NCBI GenBank assembly: GCA_963920705.1
Contig: OY987232.1
Span: 10,195,318-10,259,317, forward strand
Origin: Odiellus spinosus
Lineage: Eukaryota > Arthropoda > Arachnida > Opiliones > Phalangiidae
Direction of reading: 5' to 3'
DNA length: 64,000 nucleotides
How positions within the stretch are numbered: the first letter of the stretch is position 1; each line of letters opens with the position of its first letter. Below, piece after piece: positions 9,839 through 36,275 of the stretch. A model generated the notes under the pieces. It was not told the DNA's origin, did not search any database, and saw only the letters and a list, made by a program, of their open reading frames with translations. A program made the translations under genes and the position numbers.

Positions 9839-12800
9839 CTAGTTAATTTCTAAATTACATAAATGTTGTACAGCTCTTTTTATTAAATTTCCGTTTTTAG
9901 TTTTAATTATACACATTCTATTTTGTCCATCGCGACCATCAATAACTTCGCTAATTAAACCTATTTTCCACATATGGCGTGGTAATTTATCTTCATAAAT
10001 CAATACTACATCGCCAATTTTAAATTTAACATAGTTTTTTGGTAGTTTTGAATGGTGCGCAGATCTTAACTCCATAACATATTCGTGTCGCCACCTTTTC
10101 CATGTTTTTTCTAATATATTTTCACGGTATTTTAACCGTTTCGTCATTTCAACTCGTGTAGTTGGTACAAATTCATTTTTAAATTTTGAAGGTGGCAACG
10201 AAGTAATTCTCTGTCCAATTAGAAACTCAGCGGGCGAAAGGGGGGTAGGTTCATTTGAATCGTTATAAATGTAAGTTATCGGCCTACTGTTGATTAATGC
10301 CTCTACTTCTAAAAGCGCGGTTTCTAATTCTGTATAAGTTAAACTGGCTTGACCCAGTGTTTTTCTTAATGATGTTTTGGTGGAACGAACAAGTCGTTCC
10401 CACCATCCACCGTGCCAAGCCGCCCTTTCAACTATAAACTTCCAGACTATGCCCTGATTTCCAAAAAATTCTTTTAAGTCATTTTCCTTTAAATTTGTCC
10501 AGATATTGTTTAAATCCTTATTTGCCTTTTTGAAGGTTTGAGCATTGTCGCTATATATTACGGATGGTAAGCCTCTACGTGAAATTATTCTCCTTAAAGC
10601 CATGATAAATTCGTCTGTACTAAGCGATGGTACCAACTCTAAATGTATTGCACGGGTTACCGCGCATGTTGCTAGGCAAATATATGATTTTTTGTTTGTA
10701 TTATTGGCCTTACCGTCCTTTACAAATAGGGGTCCCGCAAAATCTATGCCCATTATTGAAAAGGGTGGGGACTCTCCTATTCTATCCTGTGGCAATGATG
10801 CAGTGGGCCTATCCGCCGGTTTCACTCTTGATTTTCTACATTTTATGCAATCGTTAATAATTTTTCGAGCTAATTGTCTACTAGAGGGAATCCAAAACCT
10901 TTCTCTGTTTTGCGTTATGGTATCATTGATCCCGCTATGCATTACTTGTTCGTGGCTTTTAATCATTAATAAATTTGACAACAAATTATTTTTATTGAGA
11001 ATAATCGGGTGTTTTTGGTTAAAGCTTAAATTTGAATCGCCAATTCTTCCCCCTACGCAAATAAGTCCATCTTTTAATATGGGGCTTAAAGAGGCAATTT
11101 TTGAAGTTTTTGAAATTTGTCCCCCGTTTTCTAAGGAATTCAGCTCCTCCCCGTATTCTTCCTTTTGAATATCTTTAACCCAAGTCAATTCTGCGTGTAG
11201 CATTTCCTCTGCACTAATTGGGCCTGTCTTTTTGATTTTATTTCTAGCTATGAATCTAAATACATAAGCTGTTACGCGCAAAGTTTTACTGAGGGAATTA
11301 TGCCTATTTAAATCCATTACGTATTGAATTCCCGTTTTATTTTTAATAACAACCCCTAGTGTGAGTTTGCGTTTTTCGTGTGATACTAATTCTAAGTTTG
11401 TTTCGGGAATTGTATTTGGCCAATATTTTTCAGATTTTCTAAGCCATTCTGGGCCTGACCACCAAAGTTTACTATTTACTAAATCTTGGGCCTTTATCCC
11501 CCTAGTTGGCAAATCAGATGGGTTTTCTGTACCTGGACAATGACCCCATATCCCCTTTTCCGTTAATCTTTGAATTTCCTGAACTCTGTTGGATACAAAA
11601 GGTTTCCAACTTTTAGCCGCGCTTGTTATCCAACTTAGCGCTATAGTGGAGTCTGTCCAAAAGAATAAACCATCTAATTTGTCTTTAAATGTATCTTTAA
11701 CATAATTAGTTAAACGCGCCCCGATTAAACATCCCATTAGTTCGAGTCTTGGTATTGTTTGACTTTGATCTTCACTATTTTCCGAACCCTTGACTGGCGC
11801 TATTCTAGTTTTTGCTGCCACTAAAGCCGTTCCAATTTTTCCGTCTCTAGTTTCATATCGTATGTAAAGTGCGGCTGCGTAAGCTTTGAGACTAGAATCT
11901 GAGAAGCAATGTAATTCTAGGTTTTTAATATCTCCATTGGTTTCGCAAAAATAATTTCTGTTTATGTTTAAACTGTTTAATACGGGTAGTTCTGAGCACC
12001 AAATTTGAAATTGTTCCTTTATGTCATCTGGTATTTCCGAGTCCCAACCTATCTTTTCCCTCTGAAGCCATAAACTTTGAAAAAGCATTTTTCCTCGAAC
12101 TACAAAGGGATGCGGTAGATAATACGTTCCTGGCTTTGAAATGTTTATTTGGTCTTTTGGTACCTTCTCAATTATCCCCGTTTTGTTTATAGTTTTAGCC
12201 GCTTCAACTGAAATTTCGTAAGCTTCATTTTCACTGTCAGCCCCGCTAACCCAATCATCTGATTGATTATTGGGGAGGGTTTCTTTGCTAACTTTCCATG
12301 GGAATTTAACAGAGTATCTATCGTCCCTAAATGTTATGTCCTTGAAAAAGGTGTTTAGCGTGGTTTCATCTGAAATATCTAAGCTTTCCTTTTCTCTAAT
12401 GCCCATACTCTCTAAATTCCAAAATGTTTGCAACGTGTCATTTACTTGTTTTTGACCTAATCTGACTAACATCGTTTTTACCGATTTTCCTGATTTTACA
12501 TTTTCTCTCTTAACTTCCGAGTTTGTAGGTCCTTGAATAGTCCATCCCAATTTAGTTTGTTGCGCCATTAATTTAGGTGATAATCTTTCAAAATTTTCTA
12601 TGGCTACATCCCAATAATAGTCCGCCCCGATTAAGAGATCGCACTCTGATTTTGTGTTAGCTACATCTCCCGTATCTTCGGCTAATTCTAAACCTTTAGT
12701 TTTCATGATGGTTTCTATTTCCTTTATAGAGCTAGCGCTGCTAATCGCCTCGTAACAAATAAATGGTAGTTCTATAGCCACTATTTCTGAGAATTGGATC

Positions 12801-14512
12801 GAGTTATTTCTATTTTCAAGTCTTAATTTTACTAATTTCGCTTTGGTTTCTTGGGGTTTCTCATTGCCACAGCTAAATATTTCTAAGTTTTGTTCCCCAA
12901 CAATAGGAAGATTTAAATTCCGCGACAACTCCCTCCTTATGAAAGTTGCCTCACTCCCCCCGTCCAAAAAACATCTAACCTTTTCGCCTTTCTGGGCCTG
13001 ATTTGGATTTTTAAGTACGCCTACCGCTGTTTGTAATAGGACTATTTTTTCCCCTTTGTTAATCTTGGCCGCAGCCGAATTTATTTGAACTATTTCTTTG
13101 ACCTCCGTGTTTTGTTTACTATCTTTTGGTTTTAAATTTACTTCGTTATTTTCGCATACCGCGTAATTGTGCATTTTTGAGCACCCCTTACAATTTTTAA
13201 ATCTTGATGTGCAATTATTTACCCCGTGCCCAAAACGGAAGCAAACAAAACACCTATTACTTTCTCGAATTATTTTCCTTTTAGTTTCTAATGTATGATT
13301 AGCGCAATTTATTGACTTATGATTCTCGCTTTTACAAAACACGCAGTACTGATTCCCCTGATTGTAATTTACGTTAGCTGAAAATGCCCTTGCTGAGGCG
13401 TTATGTCTATTTCTATCTGAATTAAATTTAATTCGAGGTTTTTCCTCCTCGTGGTAAACTTTTGGTTTACTTTTGCCTATTTCCCCACTAAGGATTTCCG
13501 CCATTTCCCTACTCTCTATCTGTCCTCTAATGAATTCGATTAACTCCAACGCGTCCCAAGTTCCTTTATTAGCTACGGGTTTTCGTTTAATGCAATAATC
13601 CGTTCTGATTTCGCTAGGTAGGCTTTTTAGAATAGCTGGACAAACAAATGACGCTTTATCTTTTATATCGACCCCCAAAACTTCTAAACTCCTTAAACTG
13701 ATTTCGCAGGTATCTAATAGGCTACGTAGGGACTTCAAATTTTTGATATCATGGACCGGCTGAATTTCTAATAATTTATTCATATGAACGTTAATGCTTA
13801 AATCTGATCTTTCAAATCTATTTTTTAACAAAGTAACTGCCTTATCGTAAGAAGCATCCGCTTGGGTTAAGCCTTCTACGGTTTTAAGCGCGTCGCCTTC
13901 TAAGTAAGACGTTAAATAAATTAGTTTTTCTACCTTCGATAGCCGTTGATTTGTATCCACCGTCGCTTGAAACCGTCCCCAGAAGCTGGTCCATTTCTCG
14001 TACGTTCCGTTGAATGTTGGGATGGTCAGTTGAGGTAGACGAACTTCCGGTTGATTTGTTGCTCCTCCGCTGGATCCCGACGAACCTCCGCCCGAGCTGA
14101 CGATGGTTGTAGATCCTCCGTAAGATGATCCTGCCGTTCCCGTTGCTTTTCGAATCCTTCGGCTTAGAGCTGATTTTAGGTCCAGGATTTTCTCCTTGTA
14201 GGCGATGGCGTCTGTGATTTCTTTTTCCATCTCCGCGTCGTTTTCAATGAGTGACTCCACTTTGGTATCGATGATGATCAGTTCATCCTCCTTTTGTATT
14301 ATGGCGTCCAAAGAGTCCTCTAGTTTCTCCAATGGCGTTTCCGGTATAGCGAGTATAGCTTCTACCGATTTTATGCGATTTGTGGCCGCTGTTCTTATAC
14401 TTCTTCTGGAAGCTTTTGCTAGTTTTAGCAAGTCCTTGTTTGACTTGGTTGGGGGTTGCTGTCCCTGTCCATTACTGCCGCTTGCAGCCGCCGCGATTTC
14501 GTCTCCTGCCAT
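9839..14512 (-). CDS. BEL/Pao Gag-Pol polyprotein, RT deleted in frame
   Basis: An uninterrupted 1557-residue frame. Order: Gag with an Asp/Glu-rich helical start and the SFWGRFQATVDTN-type domain (about 170-360), zinc knuckles such as CFVCFRFGHGVNNC (about 385-455), an aspartic protease with FLDGGSEATFI (near 515), then the conserved pre-RT part ending YYLPHPFVV near 800. The next residues, RGKMLFQSLW, normally follow the RT domain, so the whole RT core (about 300 or more residues, including the YxDD box) is gone without loss of frame. RNase H (HCFSDSSLKAYAAALY, near 869), the integrase zinc-binding part (HSGIND...CIKCRKSR, about 1190-1225), the integrase Asp residues (MGIDFAGP, IYSDNAQTF) and the Glu in WWERLVRST follow intact. 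The ATG is the first one after the leader. It would need RT from a relative to move. Confidence 0.93.
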   Translation of the reverse strand: MAGDEIAAAASGSNGQGQQPPTKSNKDLLKLAKASRRSIRTAATNRIKSVEAILAIPETPLEKLEDSLDAIIQKEDELIIIDTKVESLIENDAEMEKEITDAIAYKEKILDLKSALSRRIRKATGTAGSSYGGSTTIVSSGGGSSGSSGGATNQPEVRLPQLTIPTFNGTYEKWTSFWGRFQATVDTNQRLSKVEKLIYLTSYLEGDALKTVEGLTQADASYDKAVTLLKNRFERSDLSINVHMNKLLEIQPVHDIKNLKSLRSLLDTCEISLRSLEVLGVDIKDKASFVCPAILKSLPSEIRTDYCIKRKPVANKGTWDALELIEFIRGQIESREMAEILSGEIGKSKPKVYHEEEKPRIKFNSDRNRHNASARAFSANVNYNQGNQYCVFCKSENHKSINCANHTLETKRKIIRESNRCFVCFRFGHGVNNCTSRFKNCKGCSKMHNYAVCENNEVNLKPKDSKQNTEVKEIVQINSAAAKINKGEKIVLLQTAVGVLKNPNQAQKGEKVRCFLDGGSEATFIRRELSRNLNLPIVGEQNLEIFSCGNEKPQETKAKLVKLRLENRNNSIQFSEIVAIELPFICYEAISSASSIKEIETIMKTKGLELAEDTGDVANTKSECDLLIGADYYWDVAIENFERLSPKLMAQQTKLGWTIQGPTNSEVKRENVKSGKSVKTMLVRLGQKQVNDTLQTFWNLESMGIREKESLDISDETTLNTFFKDITFRDDRYSVKFPWKVSKETLPNNQSDDWVSGADSENEAYEISVEAAKTINKTGIIEKVPKDQINISKPGTYYLPHPFVVRGKMLFQSLWLQREKIGWDSEIPDDIKEQFQIWCSELPVLNSLNINRNYFCETNGDIKNLELHCFSDSSLKAYAAALYIRYETRDGKIGTALVAAKTRIAPVKGSENSEDQSQTIPRLELMGCLIGARLTNYVKDTFKDKLDGLFFWTDSTIALSWITSAAKSWKPFVSNRVQEIQRLTEKGIWGHCPGTENPSDLPTRGIKAQDLVNSKLWWSGPEWLRKSEKYWPNTIPETNLELVSHEKRKLTLGVVIKNKTGIQYVMDLNRHNSLSKTLRVTAYVFRFIARNKIKKTGPISAEEMLHAELTWVKDIQKEEYGEELNSLENGGQISKTSKIASLSPILKDGLICVGGRIGDSNLSFNQKHPIILNKNNLLSNLLMIKSHEQVMHSGINDTITQNRERFWIPSSRQLARKIINDCIKCRKSRVKPADRPTASLPQDRIGESPPFSIMGIDFAGPLFVKDGKANNTNKKSYICLATCAVTRAIHLELVPSLSTDEFIMALRRIISRRGLPSVIYSDNAQTFKKANKDLNNIWTNLKENDLKEFFGNQGIVWKFIVERAAWHGGWWERLVRSTKTSLRKTLGQASLTYTELETALLEVEALINSRPITYIYNDSNEPTPLSPAEFLIGQRITSLPPSKFKNEFVPTTRVEMTKRLKYRENILEKTWKRWRHEYVMELRSAHHSKLPKNYVKFKIGDVVLIYEDKLPRHMWKIGLISEVIDGRDGQNRMCIIKTKNGNLIKRAVQHLCNLEIN

Positions 14513-14581
14513 TTTTCACGACCGTTTTAATTTTTAATTGTTCCGATTTAATTTTACCGATTTATCCGAGTTTCCGATTAT

Positions 14582-19165: not shown

Positions 19166-19237
19166 GCAAACAGAAATTAATAAAAAAAAAGTTACTTTGC
19201 TTCGCACTTCTAAAAGAGTGCATTTATACCTAACGAT

Positions 19238-19629
19238 TGTAATGGGGACCCCTTTTTATACATTTAATGAAAGACCAAAGAGCTTACCTAGGTTCATGAA
19301 ATGCATTCTAGCAAATGGGACTTAATCATTCTTTCAACCCATGAGGAAACCTCCTATAGAGGGGGCCACCTATAGGTTCATTATCACCTAGGATGTCATG
19401 TGTCCAGGATGAGCTATTTAATGAAGAGAACCCTACAGAAGGGGGCAGACCGTAACTAGTGGGAATAAAGGAGAGATTCGAACTCAGGACTCCTGTTTGT
19501 TTGTTAACTCAGTTATATATTATTGATTAATTCATATTGTTATTTCAATTAGGAACTAATTTAAAAGTTAATTAAAGTTTATAAGATTATCCAGTAGTTA
19601 TTTTGTTCAGACTAACCCACAAAGTTACA
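19238..19629 (+). repeat. Gypsy 5' LTR
   Basis: Begins TGTAATGGGGACCCC and ends AAAGTTACA. An AATAAAGG signal lies in its second half. It differs from the 3' LTR at six positions that I could see. Confidence 0.95.
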
Positions 19630-20696: not shown

Positions 20697-22656
20697 ATGG
20701 ATGTTTTTTTCTCGGGGATGTATCCACATACTGATCCTATTCGAAAGGCTGGTGTAATACCACCTGCATACCAGACCCCAGAGGATACTGATTATCATAC
20801 CCCTGCACCAACTCCTCGTAGAACCCCTTTACGTAGGGCAAGATTTAGAAGTTTATCTGATTTAACCGATAGAAATACCGTTCAAAATGCTGAGAGAGAA
20901 CTATTTAACGAGGAACGATGGTTGAGGCTATTTCTAATAGGGTTTATGACAAATGTAGTAATAGACTAGAGCATACAGAACAGGAGCTTAGGTTATTGAC
21001 GCAAGCAGCTCAAGAGAAACCTGTAGCTAATCATACCCAAATAAATACAGCAACTAATCCTAGTACGGTAGACGATGATACTCAGGCACAGTTAGCTAGG
21101 GAACGGGAAGAGATTATTAGAGACCGTTGTGAATTGGAACAACAACACGTATTGTTAAGGCAGGCTCAAGAAGCCTTGGAGCAGCAAACATTAGGTGTTC
21201 AGAATAGAATTATACAGAATAGAAAGACACTTAATCAGGAACGATTGTTATTCCGTTGACAGAGACCCTCCGCCACCAGAACAAATGGAAATTTCAAATA
21301 GTGAGGGAAGTAATAATGATCCACAGGAAAATGAAGTAAATTTACCCCAGAGTTCCCGTGAAAGGGCTATTTTAGTCATAATAAGACATATAGGAACTGA
21401 CCCCGACCCTATATTATCGGGAGATGTTAATAGTGTAGTCCATCAAATTGCTCCGTCCTCTGCATCCCTGAGTTTAGGAAACCCTATCAGTTTACCGGTT
21501 TCAAGCGGAGTAACAGTTAATTTAACCAGTTCCGGTATTTCGTCCTCGACAGGAATAATATATTCTATAGCCAATACTTCTCCAAATGCTAGTATAGTTA
21601 GCTCAGGTAGGGGGGATCCTATTTTGCATTCAATCCCAATTGTTGCTAATATTGTTGGTGGAACGTCGGGAAGTTTTATACCTCCTCCTCTTAATATTCC
21701 TGGTTCAAGTATACAGACACCCACTAGTTTGGGAATAGGGAGTCAAATGTCTTCCCTAACGGTGGCGTTACCTGGTTTGATTCCCATGACAACTTCGATT
21801 TAGTTCGATACCAATACTTAGTACTATGCAGGCGGGTGGACAAGCCCGACAGCAATTGGGAGCTCATTATATTTTGAGTAAACAATTCCAAATGCCAACT
21901 TTTTCAGGGGAACCTAATGAAGACCCTAAGCTATTCTTGTATACGTTGAGCGAATACGTACAATTTCATAACTTTACGGAAGATACCTTGCATCTTTTAT
22001 TACCCAGGGTATTTACTAAAGGAGCTCAAGTATGGATTATGGATTTAATGTATAAAAATAACCGTAGATTGACCTGGCAAAATTTCATGACTGAATTTCA
22101 TGTTAAATATTTATCCGATGACAGAGAAAGTTGTTTAGAGATGGCCCTTTTTGGAGCTTTAGCCCAGGATAATGATGACCTTTTGGATTTTAGACATAAG
22201 ATAGTTAAATTGAATTAGTCATTACGAGAACCTTTAACCGAAGATAGGCTGGTTCGTTTGTTGGTAGCAAAATTACCCCCATCGGTTAAAATGTTGCTAA
22301 CTAGGAATACCTGTGGAACTATGGCCCAATTTAATAGTGAAATATTACGAATCCAGGAATCTAGAAATAGTGGTGTTGATTTACCTAGTCAAGCTACGGG
22401 TATAGTTACCCAGGGAAGGTATATTCCCCCTACATCCCCAAGAAGACCAAGTTCTTTGCAAAGAACAACTTATCCTAGACCTACTGGGTCATCTACTTTT
22501 ACCCCTACCTGTTTTAAGTGTCATGAAATTGGTCACATTAGTCGAAATTGTCCCAATGTACCACCCCAAACTAGCGCAGCTAGCTCATTACAACAGAATT
22601 CCCGAAGGGTTACTCCACCCAATACTTCTTCGGTAAACGAAACTCCAACTCTTTGA
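20697..22656 (+). pseudogene. Gypsy Gag, broken by frameshifts and a stop
   Basis: Pieces of one Gag occur in successive frames. First a Pro-rich start (about 20715-20960), then a Glu/Gln-rich coiled-coil piece (20918-21259), a Ser/Gly/Pro-rich linker (21195-21803), and the capsid-like part (from 21826, with FQMPTFSGEPNEDPKLFL and TWQNFMTEFHVKYL). An in-frame stop at 22216-22218 interrupts the capsid, after which the same frame continues to a CCHC zinc knuckle, CFKCHEIGHISRNC. The 5' leader (19630-20690) is untranslated and contains T-rich tracts. Several lesions make it non-functional. Confidence 0.85.
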
Positions 22657-24169: not shown

Positions 24170-26995
24170 TATTAAAATAAATTTTTTCATAATTTTTAAT
24201 GTTAATAGCTGCGGCAGCCGCACTTGATTCAGTCAAATCTCTACATTTTTACCAGTGCCCTTTAATCCCAATTAAAATTAACTTTTTCATAATTTTTGAT
24301 GTTAATAGCTCGGGCAGCCTCACTTGATTCAGTCAAATTTCTACATTTTTACCAGTGCCCCTTAATCCCAATTAAAATTAATTTTTTCATTATTTCTGAT
24401 GTTAATAGCTGGGGCAGCCGCACTTGATTCAGTCAAATCTCTACATTTTTACCATTGCCCTTTAATCCCAATTAAAATAATTTTTTTCATAATTTTTAAT
24501 GTTAATAGCTGCGGCAGCCGCACTTGATTCAGTCAAATCTCTACATTTTTACCAGTGCCCTTTAATCCCAATTAAAATTAACTTTTTCATAATTTTTGAT
24601 GTTAATAGCTCGGGCAGCCTCACTTGATTCAGTCAAATTTCTACATTTTTACCAGTGCCCCTTAATCCCAATTAAAATTAATTTTTTCATTATTTTTGAT
24701 GTTAATAGCTGGGGCAGCCGCACTTGATTCAGTCAAATCTCTACATTTTTACCATTGCCCTTTAATCCCAATTAAAATTAATTTTATCATTATTTTTGAT
24801 GTTAATAGCTGGGGCAGCCGCACTTGATTCAGTCAAATCTCTACATTTTTACCATTGCCCTTTAATCCCAATTAAAATTAATTTTTTCATTATTTTTGAT
24901 GTTAATAGCTGGGGCAGCCGCACTTGATTCAGTCAAATCTCTACATTTTTACCATTGCCCTTTAATCCCAATTAAAATTAATTTTTTCATTATTTTTGAT
25001 GTTAATAGCTGGGGCAGCCGCACTTGATTCAGTCAAATCTCTACATTTTTACCATTGCCCTTTAATCCCAATTAAAATTAATTTTTTCATTATTTTTTAT
25101 GTTAATAGCTGGGGCAGCCGCACTTGATTCAGTCAAATCTCTACATTTTTACCATTGCCCTTTAATCCCAATTAAAATTAATTTTTTCATAATTTTTGAT
25201 GTTAATAACTGCGGCAGCCTCACTTGATTCATTCAGATCTCTACATTTTTACCATTGCCCTTTAAACCCAATTAAAATTATTTTTTTTTCACAATTTTTG
25301 ATGTTAATAGCTGGGGCAGCCTCACTTGATTCAGTCAGATCTCTACATTTTTACCATTGCCCTTTAAACCCAATTAAAATAAATTTTTTCACAATTTTTG
25401 ATGTTAATAGCTGGGGCAGCCTCACTTGATTCAGTCAAATTTCTACATTTTTACCAGTGCCCTTTAATCCCAATTAAAATTAATTTTTTCATAATTTTTG
25501 ATGTTAATATCTGCGGCAGCCGCACTTGATTCAGTCAGATCTCTACATTTTTACCATTGCCCTTTAAACCCAATTAAAATAAATTTTTTCACAATTTTTG
25601 ATGTTAATAGCTGGGGCAGCCTCACTTGATTCAGTTAAATTTCTACATTTTTACCAGTGCCCTTTAATCCCAATTAAAATTTATTTTTTCATTATTTTTT
25701 ATGTTAATAGCTGGGGCAGCCTCACTTGATTCAGTCAAACCTCTACATTTTTACCATTGCCCTTTAATCCCAATTAAAATTAATTTTTTCATTATTTTTG
25801 ATGTTAATAGCTGGGGCAGCCTCACTTGATTCAGTCAAATCTCTACATTTTTACCATTGGCCTTTAATCCCAATTAAAATTAATTTTTTCATTATTTTTG
25901 ATGTTAATAGCTGGGGCAGCCGCACTTGATTCAGTCAAATCTCTACATTTTTACCATTGCCCTTTAATCCCAATTAAAATTAATTTTTTCATAATTTTTG
26001 ATGTTAATATCTGCGGCAGCCGCACTTGATTCAGTCAGATCTCTACATTTTTACCATTGCCCTTTAAACCCAATTAAAATTAATTTTTTCACAATTTTTG
26101 ATGTTAATAGCTGGGGCAGCCTCACTTGATTCAGTCAAATTTCTACATTTTTACCAGTGCCCTTTAATCCCAATTAAAATTTATTTTTTCATTATTTTTG
26201 ATGTTAATAGCAGGGGCAGCCTCACTTGATTCAGTCAAACCTCTACATTTTTACCATTGCCCTTTAATCCCAATTAAAATTAATTTTTTCCTTATTTTTG
26301 ATGTTAATAGCTGGGGCAGCCGCACTTGATTCAGTCAAATCTCTACATTTTTACCATTGCCCTTTAATCCCAATTAAAATTAATTTTTTCCTTATTTTTG
26401 ATGTTAATAGCTGGGGCAGCCGCACTTGATTCAGTCAAATCTCTACATTTTTACCATTGCCCTTTAATCCCAATTAAAATTAATTTTTACATTTTTTTTG
26501 ATGTTAATAGCTGGGGCAGCCGCACTTGATTTAGTCAAATTTCTACATTTTTACCATTGCCCTTTAAACCTAATTAAACTAAATTTTTTCATAATTTTTG
26601 ATGTTAATAGCTGGGGCAGCCTTACTTGATTCAGTCAGATCTCTACATTTTCCCCATTGCCCTTTAAACCCAATTAAAATTAATTTTTTCATCAATTTTG
26701 ATGTTAATACCTCCGACAGCCGCAGCGAAATCATTATATTTTCCCCATTGCCCTTTAAACCAAATTTAAATTAAATTTTTCATCAATTTTGATGTTAATA
26801 CCTCCGACAGCCGCAGTGAAATCTTTATATTTTCCCTATTGCCCTTTAAACCAAATTTAAATTAATTATTTCAGCAATTTTGATGTTAATACCTCCGACA
26901 GCCGCAGCGAAATCTTTATATTTTCCCCATTGCCCTTTAAACCAAATTCCAATTAATTTTTTCATTATTTTTGATGTTAATACCTTCCTTATTGC
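24170..26995 (+). repeat. 100-bp satellite array, about 28 copies
   Basis: Each unit contains GTTAATAGCTGGGGCAGCC, CACTTGATTCAGTC and CTACATTTTTACCATTGCCC. The first ten units keep an exact 100-bp period. Units 1-3 are repeated as a 300-bp block in units 4-6. The last three or four units (from about 26700) are diverged and shorter, with CCTCCGACAGCCGCAG. The array lies inside the Gypsy element between gag and pol. Confidence 0.95.
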
Positions 26996-29106: not shown

Positions 29107-29113
29107 ACAGATA

Positions 29114-29800
29114 TTAGATAAAAACCAGTTGGGCAGCCGCCCACCTAGAAGGGAGGGCTATTTGTGACAGATATTACAACTCAGAATGGACAGGTATTAA
29201 ATTACATCTGGCAATGGACAGATATATAAGTTTTATTACAACTCAAAATGGGCAGATATTAAATTACATCTTTCGATGGGCAGATATTAAATTACATCTT
29301 TCGATGGACAGATATTAAATTACATCTTTCGATGGACAGATATAATTTTTTATTACAACTTGGAATGGCCAGATATTAAATTTTCAAATCAGTGCAATTC
29401 AGCCAAACCTTTCACAAATAACTCTGCCCTTTGAAATAAATATTTTGTTTCATATCGTAGTATGTCACAAGATGATTTAAATTTTTATTTCAAAGTTCCT
29501 TTCACCAAAAAAAAATGCATGTTACAAAAGACAGTACAACAAATTCAGAATGACTAAAATAAAGGGCAGAGTTATTTGTGAAAGGTTTGGCTGAATTGCA
29601 CTGATTTGAAAATTTAATATCTGGCCATTCCAAGTTGTAATAAAAAATTATATCTGTCCATCGAAAGATGTGATTTAATATCTGCCCATTTTGAGTTGTA
29701 ATAAAACTTATATATCTGTCCATTGCCAGATGTAATTTAATATCTGTCACAAATAGCCCTCCCTTCTAGGTGGGCGGCTGCCCAACTGGTTGTTATCTAA
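29114..29800. repeat. Foldback with TGGACAGATATT units
   Basis: Ends TTAGATAA..AACCAGTTGGGCAGCCG and its complement. Arms of about 280-340 bp contain several short copies of GGACAGATATTAAATTACATC. The element abuts the protease coding region of the Gypsy element at its right end. Confidence 0.85.
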
Positions 29801-32800
29801 TAAAAATATAGTGGAATTCCTCGATTCCGGTGCTGATAAAAGTGCTATTTCTGAAGAGTTCATTTATGACCTTGGGGTATCTACGTTGATAGAATATAAG
29901 CCCAGGGTTGTACAAATGACAACTGATACTTTGACGGAGGAAACTTTGGGACATGTTACTCTTGAGATAGATTTGGGATTGAACATGGGCATTATTCCCT
30001 AAAATTTCATGTAATACCAGGTTTACGTCATCCCCTTATTTTGGGTAATGAACTAATTAGAGATATGAAGGCAGTTATTGATTATGATAATGATACATTT
30101 TCTTATTGTGGGTTTACCTTGCCTTTACTACCTTTAAGTTCAAATCAACCAACTCCAGTTAAGGATTTAACCAAAATTCCACAAATAAATGCAAACCAAT
30201 TAAACTTGAGAGAATCATTATTGGAATCTGAAACGAATGATCTGTTATCATTAAGTCACGAGTTTTATACTTTGTTTTCTGGAAAACCAGGTAGAACCCA
30301 TTTAGTTACACATCACATTAGACTTAAACCAGGAACAATACCAGTTAGTAAACAACCCTATTCTCATAGCCGGTTTGTTAACGAAGAAATTGATAACCAA
30401 ATTCAAGAATTATTGAAACAGGGTATGATACGCCCTTCAGAGAGCCCATGGGCTTCACCCATAATAATGGTAGACAAAAAAGATGCCAGAAAGGGAGATG
30501 GAAGAGATAGACGCATGTGTATCGATTTAACAGCAGTTATAGCAGTCACCATTAATGATCCATACAATATTCCCAAGATTGATGAGATAATAGATTCAAT
30601 GGGTAAACCCAAATATATCACGAAGTTAAGACTTGAAATCAGGTTATTGGCAAATTGAAATGGCCCCTAAAGATATTGAGAAAACAGCTTTCGTAACTAG
30701 AGACGGTAAATATGAATGGTTAGTTATGCCCTTTGGACTTAAAAATGCCCCGTCCAGCTTTATGCGTTTGATGAATAGAGTTCTAAGATATGCCAGAAGA
30801 TACGGGGTTGGAATTTATTTGGATGACATAATTATTGCGAGTCAAACCTGGTCGGATCATTTGGTAGCCTTACGCTATGTATTTTCGTAATTGAAACATG
30901 CAGGCTTAACCCTTAACTTAAGTAAAAGTTATTTTGGTGTAACTCAGGTCTCAGTATTGGGATATATAGTTAGTGCCCAGGGAGTTCAAATAGATCCCGA
31001 TAAAGTCAGAGATATCATAAATTTTCCTACACCTAGAACAGTTAAACAAGTCTCTTCTTTTTTGGGTATGTGTGGATATCACACTAGATTTATTCCTCGA
31101 TTAGCTGATCTTACAGCCCCATTGAATAAATTAAAAAGGAAATATTATAGGTGGCGTTGGGGTGATGAAGAACATAATGCCTTTGAGGAATTGAAATATC
31201 TAATTGCTACCGCAGCCATGCTTCAGGTACCAACTCCCGATGGGAAATATATAATAACGACGGATGCTAGTGGGACAGGCATTGTGGGTATGTTAAGTCA
31301 AATTCAGGGTGAAGAAGAAGTCACCTTGGCTTACTTTAGTAAGTTATTGACCCCTGCACAGCTAAAGTATAGTACCCCAGAACAAGAAGCTTTAGCGGTT
31401 ATCGAAACCGTTCGAAAATTCAGACATAATATAGCGGGAAGGAATTTTGCTATAGTATCAGATCATCGTGCCCTTTGTTGGTTACTTAAACTAAAAAATA
31501 AGAAGAGCAGATTAATGAGATGGGCCCTAGAATTACAAGAATATATGCCCTTTGAAATCTTGCATAAATCTGGTAGTGAAAACCTTGTAGCAGATGCCCT
31601 ATCAAGATGTCCCGTATCTGATTTACATTCTGTTAGTCCCAAAAATATTGATACGCAAGAACCCGAGGATTTAAGACCTATTAATTTAAATGTCATAGCC
31701 TGTAACCCAGGTCTTACTGTATCACATCTGGATTTCGTTACCATGGATGAAATCAAAGAAGCTCAAAAATCTGATCCTAAGTTGATTGAATTAAGAAATA
31801 AGCTAAATAATAATGAACCATCAAGAGTGTATGAAATCAGAGATGATTTAATCTATAGAAAACCTGAAGGATTTCAGCCAGTGAAGGTGTTGATCCCTAC
31901 TAAGTTAATACCTAGAGTGCTACAAGCATATCATGACCATCCCATGTCTGGTCATAGAGGTAGAACTACTACCTATGCCAAAGTTAGAGCTCGATATTAT
32001 CATCCCCAATTGTATACCCTGGTTAAGAAATATGTTAAAGAATGTGAAATTTGTCAACGATATAAAAGTAGAAATACAAAGCGCCCAGGTCTTATGATAC
32101 CCTCGTATAAGATACACCCAGGCGATCTGTTGGGAATAGATATTATGGGTCCATTACCCTGCACTAAAAATCAAAATCGATTCCTGTTTGTAATGGTAGA
32201 TTATTTTACGAAATATGTGGACGTTTTTCCCGTTAGAAGTATTACAGCTCCGATATTGTGTAAAGTATTGCTCCAGTATATTTCTAGGCACGGTACTATG
32301 GCGCTTATTTTGTCGGATAATGGGCCCCAATTTATATCTAACCTTTAACAATTATGCCATAAGTTGAAAATTAAAGTTAAATTTACTTCTCCGTATCATC
32401 CCCAGGCTAATATGACTGAACGAGTGAATAGAGTTATGGGAGAAATTATGAGCATATATACAGGAAATGTACATACAAAATGGGATGAACATTTACCATT
32501 AATTCAGTTGGCAATTAACAGTACAGTACATGTATCCACTGGTTATTACCCATTTTATCTTCATCATGGTTATGAACCTACGTTACCCTGGGATGAAAGA
32601 AGTTTTGAGGGGGTACCCATTAATGTAGAAACGGTCCTAGAATATGAGAAAGGACCTATTTATGACTGGCAGATAGCTATAGATTTCGCACAGGAAATAA
32701 ATGACCTAGCTTGCATGAAACAGAAGTATTTTTATGATAAAAATTATACCAATAGCGAACTCGAGGTGGGACAGTTAGTATGGAAGCTGGGACATAGATT

Positions 32801-33728
32801 GTCAAATGCGGTAGCGAAGTTTTCCGCTAAGTTTGCACCCCTTTGGGAAGGCCCATATCGAATTGTAGAAAAAATTTCCCCTGTGAGTTTTTTAATTATG
32901 GAGATGAGTACTGGCGCCCTGGCTGGCACCTGGCACATTAATCAATTGACATTATATATGTGTACTGCATCCCTAGACACACAGGAAGTCTTAGAACCTG
33001 AGGTTAATCCTACTGTTGTGATAGACCCAGTTGCTGAAGAACCTCCCATAGATCCGGATCAAACATTTGTAATGTTTCCCTCAAGTAGAAATGCTCCGCC
33101 AGAAATGGAAGAGGATTCAGAATTGATAGAAGTTATTGTAGTACAGGATAAAGCAGTACCGGATTCTGTAAAACAAATACAATCTTCCTAATCTTTGGTC
33201 CCTTATATTAACCAAACAGACAGCAGTTCAACTAATTCTATAATAAATGATTCGGATGAATCTTTGAATAACAGAAATATAAATGTTCAGATGGGTAGCT
33301 CTATAGTTGTCGAGGAACCATCTAGTGAAAGTGAAAATGAGGAACCTCCTCGGTATAATTTGAGGTCAAGAGTCAGATTCTCAAATCCCCTTATTGAGGA
33401 GATACCAGCTGTTGATCAACAAATCCTAGTTGTTCATCAGGACTCTGTTTTGACTCTAGATACAGAAGAAAATGATAATCCCTTATTAAAACCTTTTTCT
33501 TATGGTTGGCATAGGGAAGTGGTATTCCGTAGATCCCAAGTTTCTCGTCTCGGAGATGTTTATTATTATACCCCCGGTCCTAATGTTAGAAAATTACGTT
33601 CTTTCCCTGATATTGATGATTATCTTTTATTGCATGCAATTGCACCCCATATTCTAAATAGGTTTAACTTTTCTATGAAACCTATACCAATTGCTTATCC
33701 CCCATTCGAAACCGTACGCCATTCGTGA
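29800..33728 (+). pseudogene. Gypsy Pol, broken by frameshifts and stops
   Basis: Protease (FLDSGADKSAISEEF, about 29818), RT with RMCIDLTAVIAVTINDPY and intact YLDD (IYLDDIIIAS, about 30816), RNase H (TTDASGTGIVGMLS, about 31258; YSTPEQEALAV; VSDHRAL), integrase zinc-binding part (HPMSGHRG...CEICQRYK), integrase core Asp residues (GIDIMGP, LSDNGPQF) and Glu (MTERVNRV), then a GPY-like module (LWEGPYRIVEKISPVSF) and an acidic tail with YNLRSR. Frame changes near 30003 and 30635 and in-frame stops at 30888, 32346 and 33189 disable it. In the RT, TAVIAV replaces the usual YRALNAV-type motif. Confidence 0.92.
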
Positions 33729-33799
33729 TTGTATTGTTGTCCCTATATTTTTATAGATGCTTCGAACAAGAGGCAAGCAATTCACGGGGGTACTATCCC

Positions 33800-34887
33800 A
33801 TGACAGCTCAAATGGACAACTCATCTGATCTCCTACTTCAAGAAGCGATTAAACGTATCGAAAAACTAGAACTTCAAAATCAATTATTACGTAGGAATCG
33901 TCCGGACAGTGATTGTCCTAGTTCTTTTTTGGAATCATTACCTGAGGGACCACTGCCTTCGATACATTTATCCGAGGGTCTTAACGAATCCCAAGAGTTA
34001 GGGGCTTCTTCCCCAATTATTCCTCCGGCAGAGTCATCTAATGAACCTGGTCCTTCAACACAAACAATACCAAAAGCGCCTCAATCTACTTTCATGCAAG
34101 TGACTCGTGAAGAGTCTCGTTCCGCAGCAGCACCCGTTACCGTAGAACAGGATATCCCATATGTGGACATTTTGTTTTCAATTGGGCTATATTATCGTCA
34201 AAAGGGCCTAACTATCCCATTTCAAAAATTCGTGGATAATAATCCTCAAATGTTCCCTGGCAAATTTGAAGGGTGCATTGTGCACATTGGCAATCGCCCA
34301 ACGGACTTAAATGCTTCAACACTCCATTACGGCAAACTGCCGGGAATTTTTATGGTAGTGGAAATTCATCCTGCCTTTGCGCGTCAATTCTGTGCGGATG
34401 ATATGGGAGCCCTAGTAGCCAAGTGTCTCGGATATGCCCATGTGCGGGGGTGGGAAATATTGGTTTGGATTATACATCAGAGGTCCTCCTCACTTGTTCT
34501 AACATTCAGCAACAATTTGCCTTTCGCAAAAAGTTGGGAATCGCCAAGGAGTACGGTCAACCGGTTTTTATACATTGTCGGCTCGCGTTTACTGACTGCT
34601 TTTCTATTCTGCAGCAGGAATTGGCCCCAAATCACCCAATTATTATATAAACTTTCCAAGGCAATCGACCCCAAATGTCCCAATATTTGTCAGCCTTTTC
34701 CCGTGTGTATTTTGCTGTGAGTCCCCTAGTGGTGCGTTCCAGTTCACAACCAACCCAGGACGCTTTAAAATATATTCCGGGCAATCGCCTTTTAGTTGAG
34801 TCTAATGCCCCCATGATAAAACCGATAGGGTTAACTTTTCCGGATGGTCTTCCATCAATTTCACACCCAGTTGGCCCATCAAATTAG
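33800..34887 (+). pseudogene. Gypsy third ORF with TatD-like hydrolase domain
   Basis: After pol and before the 3' LTR. An ATG at 33800 opens a helical, possibly coiled-coil region (LLLQEAIKRIEKLELQNQLL), then a Ser/Pro-rich linker, then a region that reads as a TatD-family metal hydrolase: MVVEIHPAFARQF, then after a frameshift near 34450 GNIGLDYTSE (family: GEIGLDY), AKEYGQPVFIHCR, a stop at 34648, then ALKYIPGNRLLVESNAP (family: RLLLETDAP). TatD proteins are Mg-dependent phosphoesterases. Here the N-terminal HxH metal motif is not visible (LFSIG at that place) and the late metal-binding Asp is Asn (ESNAP), so catalysis may have been lost even before the frameshift. The position is where some Gypsy elements carry env; no signal peptide or membrane anchor is seen. 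Confidence 0.8.
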
Positions 34888-35226: not shown

Positions 35227-35618
35227 TGTAATGGGGACCCCTTTTTATACATTTAATTAAAGACCAAAGAGCTTACCTAGGTTCATGAAATGCATTCTAT
35301 CAAATGGGACTTAATCATTCTTTCAACCCATGAGGAAACCTCCTATAGAGGGCGCCACCTATAGGTTCATTATCACCTAGGATATCATGTGTCCAGGATG
35401 AGCTATATAATGAAGAGAACCCTACAGAAGGGGGCAGACCGTAACTAGTGGGAATAAAGGAGAGATTCGAACTCAGGACTCCTGTTTGTTTGTTAACTCA
35501 GTTATATATTATTGATTAATTCATATTGTTATTTCAATTGGGAACTAATTTAAAAGTTAATTAAAGTTTATAAGATTATCCAGTAGTTATTTTGTTCAGA
35601 CTAACCCACAAAGTTACA
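35227..35618 (+). repeat. Gypsy 3' LTR
   Basis: 392 bp, same ends as the 5' LTR, followed by CGAT, the target duplication. Confidence 0.95.
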
Positions 35619-36275
35619 CGATGGTCGACACAGCCGTAAAGGTACATAAATAAAAAATTCAAAACCGTGAAGGGTCAGAAATTAAAAATTAAAGGTTAAG
35701 AAATAAGAAAGCCAGTCTAATAAATAAGAAAGTTATAAGTTTAGATATAATTTGAATAAAAATTATACCAAAAAAAAGACATAAATTCAGCCTATGGAAA
35801 GTTTTAATAGTAGAGCGCAGAATAATATTAAGATTATAATTCGACCTAAATAGGAGTGGCGTGAATAAATAACTGGTCCAAGGGTGGATTCTACGATGAG
35901 GAGTCAGCAAGGGAGACATTGATATGTCAGAGGATTCTCTCTCTTACCTCGGTGTCATCCCCCTTAGTGATGGAGTTACAGTATTAGCCATTAAAGGGGG
36001 TTCCATGACGTCAGGTTTTCTTACTCCCTTGGCTCTTTGCTGTCTCCATAAAGGATGACTACATAACTTTTACTTTTCATATGCCGAATTTGTCTTTTGT
36101 ATCATTTTTATTCACATTAATATCTAAAAGTATAAATTCCTAATTTCTTATTTCTTTAAGCATTAATTTTTAATTTCTGTACCTTTTCGGCTTTGATCGA
36201 CCATCGTTAGGTATAAATGCGCTTTTTTAGAAGTGCGAAGCAAAGCTACGTTTTTGTATAATTTTATTGTTGTTT

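Follow-up and report, generated by a model that had tools for sequence, protein, structure and literature searches.

A TatD-like third open reading frame that lacks most TatD metal ligands in a Ty3/Gypsy element of Odiellus spinosus

To our knowledge, few retroelements keep a third open reading frame (ORF) that does not encode an envelope protein. In a window of 64,000 nucleotides from Odiellus spinosus (Arachnida, Opiliones, Phalangiidae; assembly GCA_963920705.1, contig OY987232.1, forward strand positions 10,195,318 to 10,259,317), a Ty3/Gypsy element bounded by long terminal repeats (LTRs) has a TatD-like ORF, here called ORF3, between pol and the 3' LTR. Why does a retroelement carry a TatD fold, and is its product still a hydrolase? 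Here, we compared the window copy with its relatives in the 443 Mb genome, from which 30 TatD loci were fetched. We hold, with moderate confidence, that ORF3 is an accessory gene of this Ty3/Gypsy lineage with a coiled coil and a variable linker ahead of a TatD barrel without a metal site, and that its product is a putative nucleic-acid binder or decoy made from a spliced mRNA. Positions are those of the window, and the parts of the element are on the plus strand.

TatD-like ORF3 and its copies in the genome

The four TatD motifs listed in a preliminary description of this DNA lie after pol, with HPAFARQF (34367) in one frame and GNIGLDY (34453), PVFIHCR (34561) and NRLLVESNAP (34783) in another. 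Their occurrence far exceeds chance: a search with PF01026 (TatD_DNase), which that description had proposed, gave two matches above the curated cut-off, one at 34402-34647 with E=1.2e-11 (profile positions 86-151) and one at 34651-34884 with E=3.7e-7 (profile positions 155-209). The domain can be divided into an N half (34145-34447), in which alignment with relatives places YVDILFS at the TatD HxH position, a middle part with GNIGLDY and PVFIHCR (34448-34647), and a C part with NRLLVESNAP (34651-34884), which lies past a stop at 34648-34650. The N half on its own (34145-34450) had no match in Pfam or NCBIfam, and tblastn aligns it collinearly with the N-terminal region of this domain in relatives (55.9% to locus L001, 90-91% to L002 and L011). 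The predicted model has a TIM-barrel fold, in agreement with the profile. At the level of sequence profile and predicted fold, ORF3 carries the TatD fold.

ORF3 starts at the ATG at 33757, earlier than had been supposed, and the N-terminal part (33757-34144) consists of a coiled coil and a linker. The coiled-coil-like segment that had been noted before the TatD part is backed by a helix predicted, with low to middling local confidence, at residues 26-60 of ORF3 in the relative L007. The window copy is damaged: its frame at the ATG is short, frame changes occur in the N-terminal part and in the domain, and the stop mentioned above interrupts the latter. In some other copies the ORF3 frame runs without interruption for as many as 443 codons, and therefore intact copies exist. 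In a tree that was built without animal TATDN2, which ORF3 presumably resembles, the ORF3 proteins form a single clade with support of 100/100, separate from the host-type TatD gene of this genome and from 12 database proteins.

The genome has at least 92 matches to PF01026, merged into 77 places, and these could belong either to the element or to the host. Under the second explanation, the TatD sequence is a multicopy host TATDN2-like family beside which Gypsy elements lie by accident, or a one-off host fragment. A figure legend in PMC6962438 shows TATDN2 next to transposon-like genes in the Hox region of the giant squid, which would suit a host family, as would the 30 of the 77 places that have no scored match to the Pol tail upstream. 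The remaining 47 places have a Pol tail upstream. Moreover, among the 150 of 307 candidate Pol-tail matches that were scored, 52 are followed on their own strand, within 2 kb, by a TatD match, in constant order and at a distance of 436-1716 nt, against a mean of 0.25 for randomly shifted tails. The co-location varies with the tail score, being found in 22 of 29 rows with at least 150 bits, 38 of 61 with at least 75 bits, and 14 of 89 below 75 bits. An LTR resembling that of the window lies downstream in 14 of the 29 other loci, and five near-identical copies (L006-L009 and L017) stop at a common LTR end, beyond which their flanks diverge. The host explanation is hardly credible on this evidence. 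The one-off host fragment is rejected, as several independent insertions carry ORF3 between pol and the 3' LTR, and an adjacent host gene family is rejected by the co-location for those places that have it. An accessory ORF in this location across many insertions is the arrangement of the bdelloid-type LTR elements.

The preliminary description had stated that copies of the family without this ORF would count against its reading, and among the loci looked at this applies in part. Element L072, a sister of L030, has no ORF3 between the Pol tail and the LTR (L072:1-880). The two share 79% DNA identity in the Pol tail and 86% again from just ahead of the LTR onward. The pol frame of L072 is open over 1381 codons, which indicates that ORF3 is accessory, presumably helpful but not strictly required. 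L063 and L064 have an ORF3 whose TatD domain is internally deleted.

Loss of the metal site and selection on the barrel

The metal ligands of TatD, which we take to be HxH, Glu, His, His and Asp, were located by alignment with bacterial TatDs, and the columns were then read across the 30 loci in tblastn alignments. The bacterial proteins in this alignment contain the ligand motifs. The single host-type TatD gene read in this genome retains the Glu, His, His and Asp motifs, its HxH exon being outside the sequence seen. In ORF3, the Glu column has N in 18 loci, A in 7 and G in 5; the HCF His column has L in 25, M in 3 and a stop in 2; the Asp column has N in 24, H in 3, and Q, Y and a gap in one each. 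HxH is missing in all 20 loci that are readable there, and the pattern DTHxH does not occur in any frame of the 30 loci. The sole surviving ligand is the first His outside HxH, that of the xCR motif, which is retained in 14 of the 30 loci. Loose patterns searched in all three frames are found as IHxR in 16 loci and as TDxP in three (L011, L025 and L026), the latter outside the aligned columns; at the aligned Asp column, L011 has N and L025 has H. The missing HxH and the D-to-N change in ESNAP, first noticed in the window copy, are thus family-wide over the loci read and not damage peculiar to that copy. The earlier proposal that the element captured a hydrolase in the env position stands for the captured TatD fold; judged from these columns, the protein is probably no longer a hydrolase.

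One could argue that ORF3 is still an enzyme, with a rearranged non-canonical metal site or a metal-free chemistry on nucleic acids of the element. The barrel is conserved and has invariant polar residues, and the surviving xCR His would fit such an activity. However, the Glu, the HCF His and the Asp are substituted at every locus with a readable column, while the genome's own TatD gene retains these ligands, and the xCR position itself varies (H, K, L, M, R, N, A) among copies that are otherwise constrained. We regard a remaining enzymatic activity as unlikely.

The barrel is under purifying selection across the subfamilies, as estimated from comparisons of natural copies. The synonymous (pS) and non-synonymous (pN) differences are 0.57 and 0.107 for the pair L003-L004, and 0.71 and 0.121 for L011-L022; synonymous sites are near saturation in such pairs, and the proteins are still alike. 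The ratios of non-synonymous to synonymous rates (dN/dS) are rough, because many pairs are saturated. In all 10 pairs formed by L001, L003, L004, L007 and L030, pN/pS is lower in the barrel than in the linker that precedes it. These data bear on a further explanation, in which ORF3 is a near-neutral passenger of recently amplified elements. The sister element without ORF3 has kept a long open pol frame, and accessory ORF3s of rotifers show no significant departure from neutrality in the excerpted text of PMC5408684; both would agree with a passenger. However, near-saturated synonymous sites with retained amino acids need selection across many element generations, and the linker would not be expected to evolve faster than the barrel. 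A passenger is, in our view, quite improbable. That purifying selection persists on a barrel deprived of its metal site suggests that the barrel serves in binding or interference.

Start of ORF3, Pol tail and possible role

A T-rich stretch with TAG abuts the ORF3 ATG in the window (33745-33759). Twenty loci were examined for this feature, T-richness being judged by eye. The MBD, a methyl-CpG-binding domain described below, is upstream of TatD in 19 of the 30 loci, and L027, in which it is downstream and TatD pieces occur three times in tandem, was excluded from the count. The ATG is directly preceded by a T-rich stretch with a final AG in 17 of these 19 (exceptions L021 and L029), and in 12 of the 17 it opens at least 250 codons. 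For comparison, AG precedes 79 of the 1151 ATGs in the examined loci, the ORF3 sites included. As the copies are related, the effective number is about 7 subfamilies in our own grouping. The T-rich AG is, from its sequence, likely a 3' splice site.

The tail of Pol just upstream of ORF3, in a frame at 33192-33725, has a domain of the MBD/TAM type at 33471-33680 (PF01429, E=2e-10), which the preliminary description does not mention. The TAM domains of BAZ2 proteins are not known as strict readers of methyl-CpG, and the nearest solved chains to this domain are BAZ2 domains, with BAZ2B first (E=1.3e-6). An Arg, an Asp-x-Tyr and a second Arg are presumably the contact positions of methyl-CpG readers. 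The two Arg columns and the Tyr column are invariant in 14 of 14 sequences, and the Asp is retained in the window and in 5 of 6 related Gypsy tails (exception L029). An MBD was also found upstream of the reverse transcriptase in all seven Copia (RVT_2) loci that were scanned (L037, L039, L040, L047, L051, L057 and L058), located behind the integrase/SH3 region wherever this was seen. Two LTR-element superfamilies of this genome therefore bear MBDs, which makes the targeting of retroelements by DNA methylation directly testable. L073 is a distant MBD element with a different long frame in place of TatD; this frame (L073:100-2601) is open, rich in charged E/R/K repeats, and follows an MBD-bearing frame that is open over 1570 codons.

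The proposed role can be described as follows. ORF3 would be translated from a spliced mRNA, like env in errantiviruses, and the coiled coil would render the protein oligomeric. Among the nucleic acids of the element, the dead barrel may bind single-stranded DNA or RNA ends or else RNA:DNA hybrids; alternatively, it may block a host TatD-type nuclease without cutting. By either activity the cDNA of the element would be protected or chaperoned. The MBD in which Pol ends would tether the integration complex to DNA or to methylated CpG, as the chromodomain does in chromoviruses. According to an excerpt of PMC12709183, human TATDN2 is an RNase that resolves R-loops, and medaka tatdn2 is required in primordial germ cells. 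A dead TatD relative could compete in these cells, in which a retroelement has to be active if it is to be inherited. It is possible, although we hold this only tentatively, that the lineage reads DNA methylation by its integrase-tail MBD and carries the spliced dead TatD as a decoy or binder that counters the processing of its nucleic acids by host TATDN-type proteins. If so, many invertebrate 'TATDN2-like' genes would be ORF3s that belong to such elements. Where invertebrate annotations list TATDN2-like genes in multiple copies, these may be transposon genes. The 'TATDN2' of the giant squid Hox region, as drawn in the legend of PMC6962438, could be such an ORF3.

Several observations weigh against the role proposed here for ORF3. 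In five copies, the barrel has a net charge of just -1 to +6, which is no argument for nucleic-acid binding. The xCR His persists in part of the family, and L072 has no ORF3. No TatD match lies near 98 of the 150 scored Pol-tail rows; many of these rows are weak matches that may belong to other MBD elements, as some of the low-scoring ones do. A splice donor with the strict pattern was not found in the 5' region of the window. Finally, a related retroelement outside this genome was not found in the collections searched, which are prokaryotic, viral or mixed metagenome. In these, protein searches with the N part of ORF3 (439 candidates) and with its C part, X replacing stops (66 candidates), gave no scored candidate, and the ORF3 profile retrieved 52 proteins from 3538 candidates, all with PF01026, of which the two named by organism are from Dehalococcoidia. 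Scans of IMG/VR with the Pol tail, the TatD piece, the pol piece and the ORF3 profile, and a scan of phage DNA, had no matches; BFVD showed one match at E < 0.001, a Yasminevirus protein.

Errantiviruses (gypsy) have env as the third ORF before the 3' LTR. ORF3 likewise lies ahead of the 3' LTR and begins at a likely splice acceptor, and an env-like protein for cell-to-cell movement could be supposed from this position and from the likely spliced mRNA. However, the predicted fold is that of a soluble barrel, and hydropathy remains below transmembrane strength, with a top 19-residue mean of 1.36-1.47 in five copies. On the hydropathy of these five copies only, which revealed no transmembrane segment or signal peptide, an env-type ORF3 is rejected, and we consider it very unlikely. 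Chromoviruses are Gypsy elements with an integrase chromodomain, a domain named among the accessory domains of LTR elements in an extract of PMC6338049. The Odiellus element likewise has a chromatin or DNA reader at the end of Pol; here an MBD/TAM-type domain replaces the chromodomain, and a third ORF is added. Compared with TatD/TATDN nucleases (PF01026; 2gzx, 1yix, 8efg), ORF3 is without the Glu, the HCF His, the Asp and HxH, has an N-terminal coiled coil and is encoded by a retroelement. The excerpted PMC5408684 describes Vesta and Juno of bdelloid rotifers, LTR elements with a GDSL esterase or DEDDy exonuclease ORF3 in the env place, an enzyme-fold ORF3 as in our element, and the retroelement family Athena-L, in which GDSL derivatives lack catalytic residues, akin to the ligand loss here. 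These bdelloid elements are the nearest kind known, and our element differs from Vesta and Juno by its TatD fold, the family-wide loss of the metal site, the Pol-terminal MBD and the purifying selection on the barrel. No TatD or MBD domain in an LTR element was found among the titles and abstract beginnings listed by searches of the open-licence PMC literature. Relative to the searchable literature, novelty lies in the TatD fold, in the loss of ligands throughout the family and in the MBD tail, while enzyme-fold ORF3s in LTR elements were already known.

Architecture of the element in the window

The element has two LTRs of 392 bp (19238-19629 and 35227-35618), with TG...CA ends and 98.5% identity to each other, and CGAT borders both ends (19234-19237 and 35619-35622) as a 4-bp target-site duplication. 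Segment 19238-35618 is therefore a single insertion of 16.4 kb. The order protease, reverse transcriptase, RNase H and integrase, found by profile searches in which the protease piece is weak, is that of Ty3/Gypsy elements, as are the LTR ends and the length of the target duplication (4-6 bp). The gag region (21195-22656) has broken frames and a CCHC zinc knuckle (zf-CCHC, E=8.8e-6), with weak matches below the cut-off to Ty3_capsid and Retrotrans_gag. It is followed by the protease piece (29757-29999; gag-asp_proteas, E=8.2e-4, below the Pfam cut-off) and a reverse transcriptase piece (30630-30887; RVT_1, E=1.3e-18). The next segment (30891-32345) comprises RNase H (RT_RNaseH, E=1.5e-30), the integrase zinc-binding domain (Integrase_H2C2, E=7.9e-21) and the N part of the integrase core (rve, E=4.2e-8). 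The C part of the integrase (32349-33188) matches SH3_Tf2-1 (E=0.0017) and Integrase_p58_C (E=0.0018), both below the cut-off.

The element also has a minisatellite (24171-26982) with a 100-bp unit in about 28 copies and a terminal unit of 91 bp, and an inverted-repeat block (29112-29802) that reaches the protease piece, with arms of at most 142 nt that are 95-98% complementary. Elsewhere in the window, a BEL/Pao element on the minus strand (9842-14515) has an uninterrupted frame of 1558 codons.
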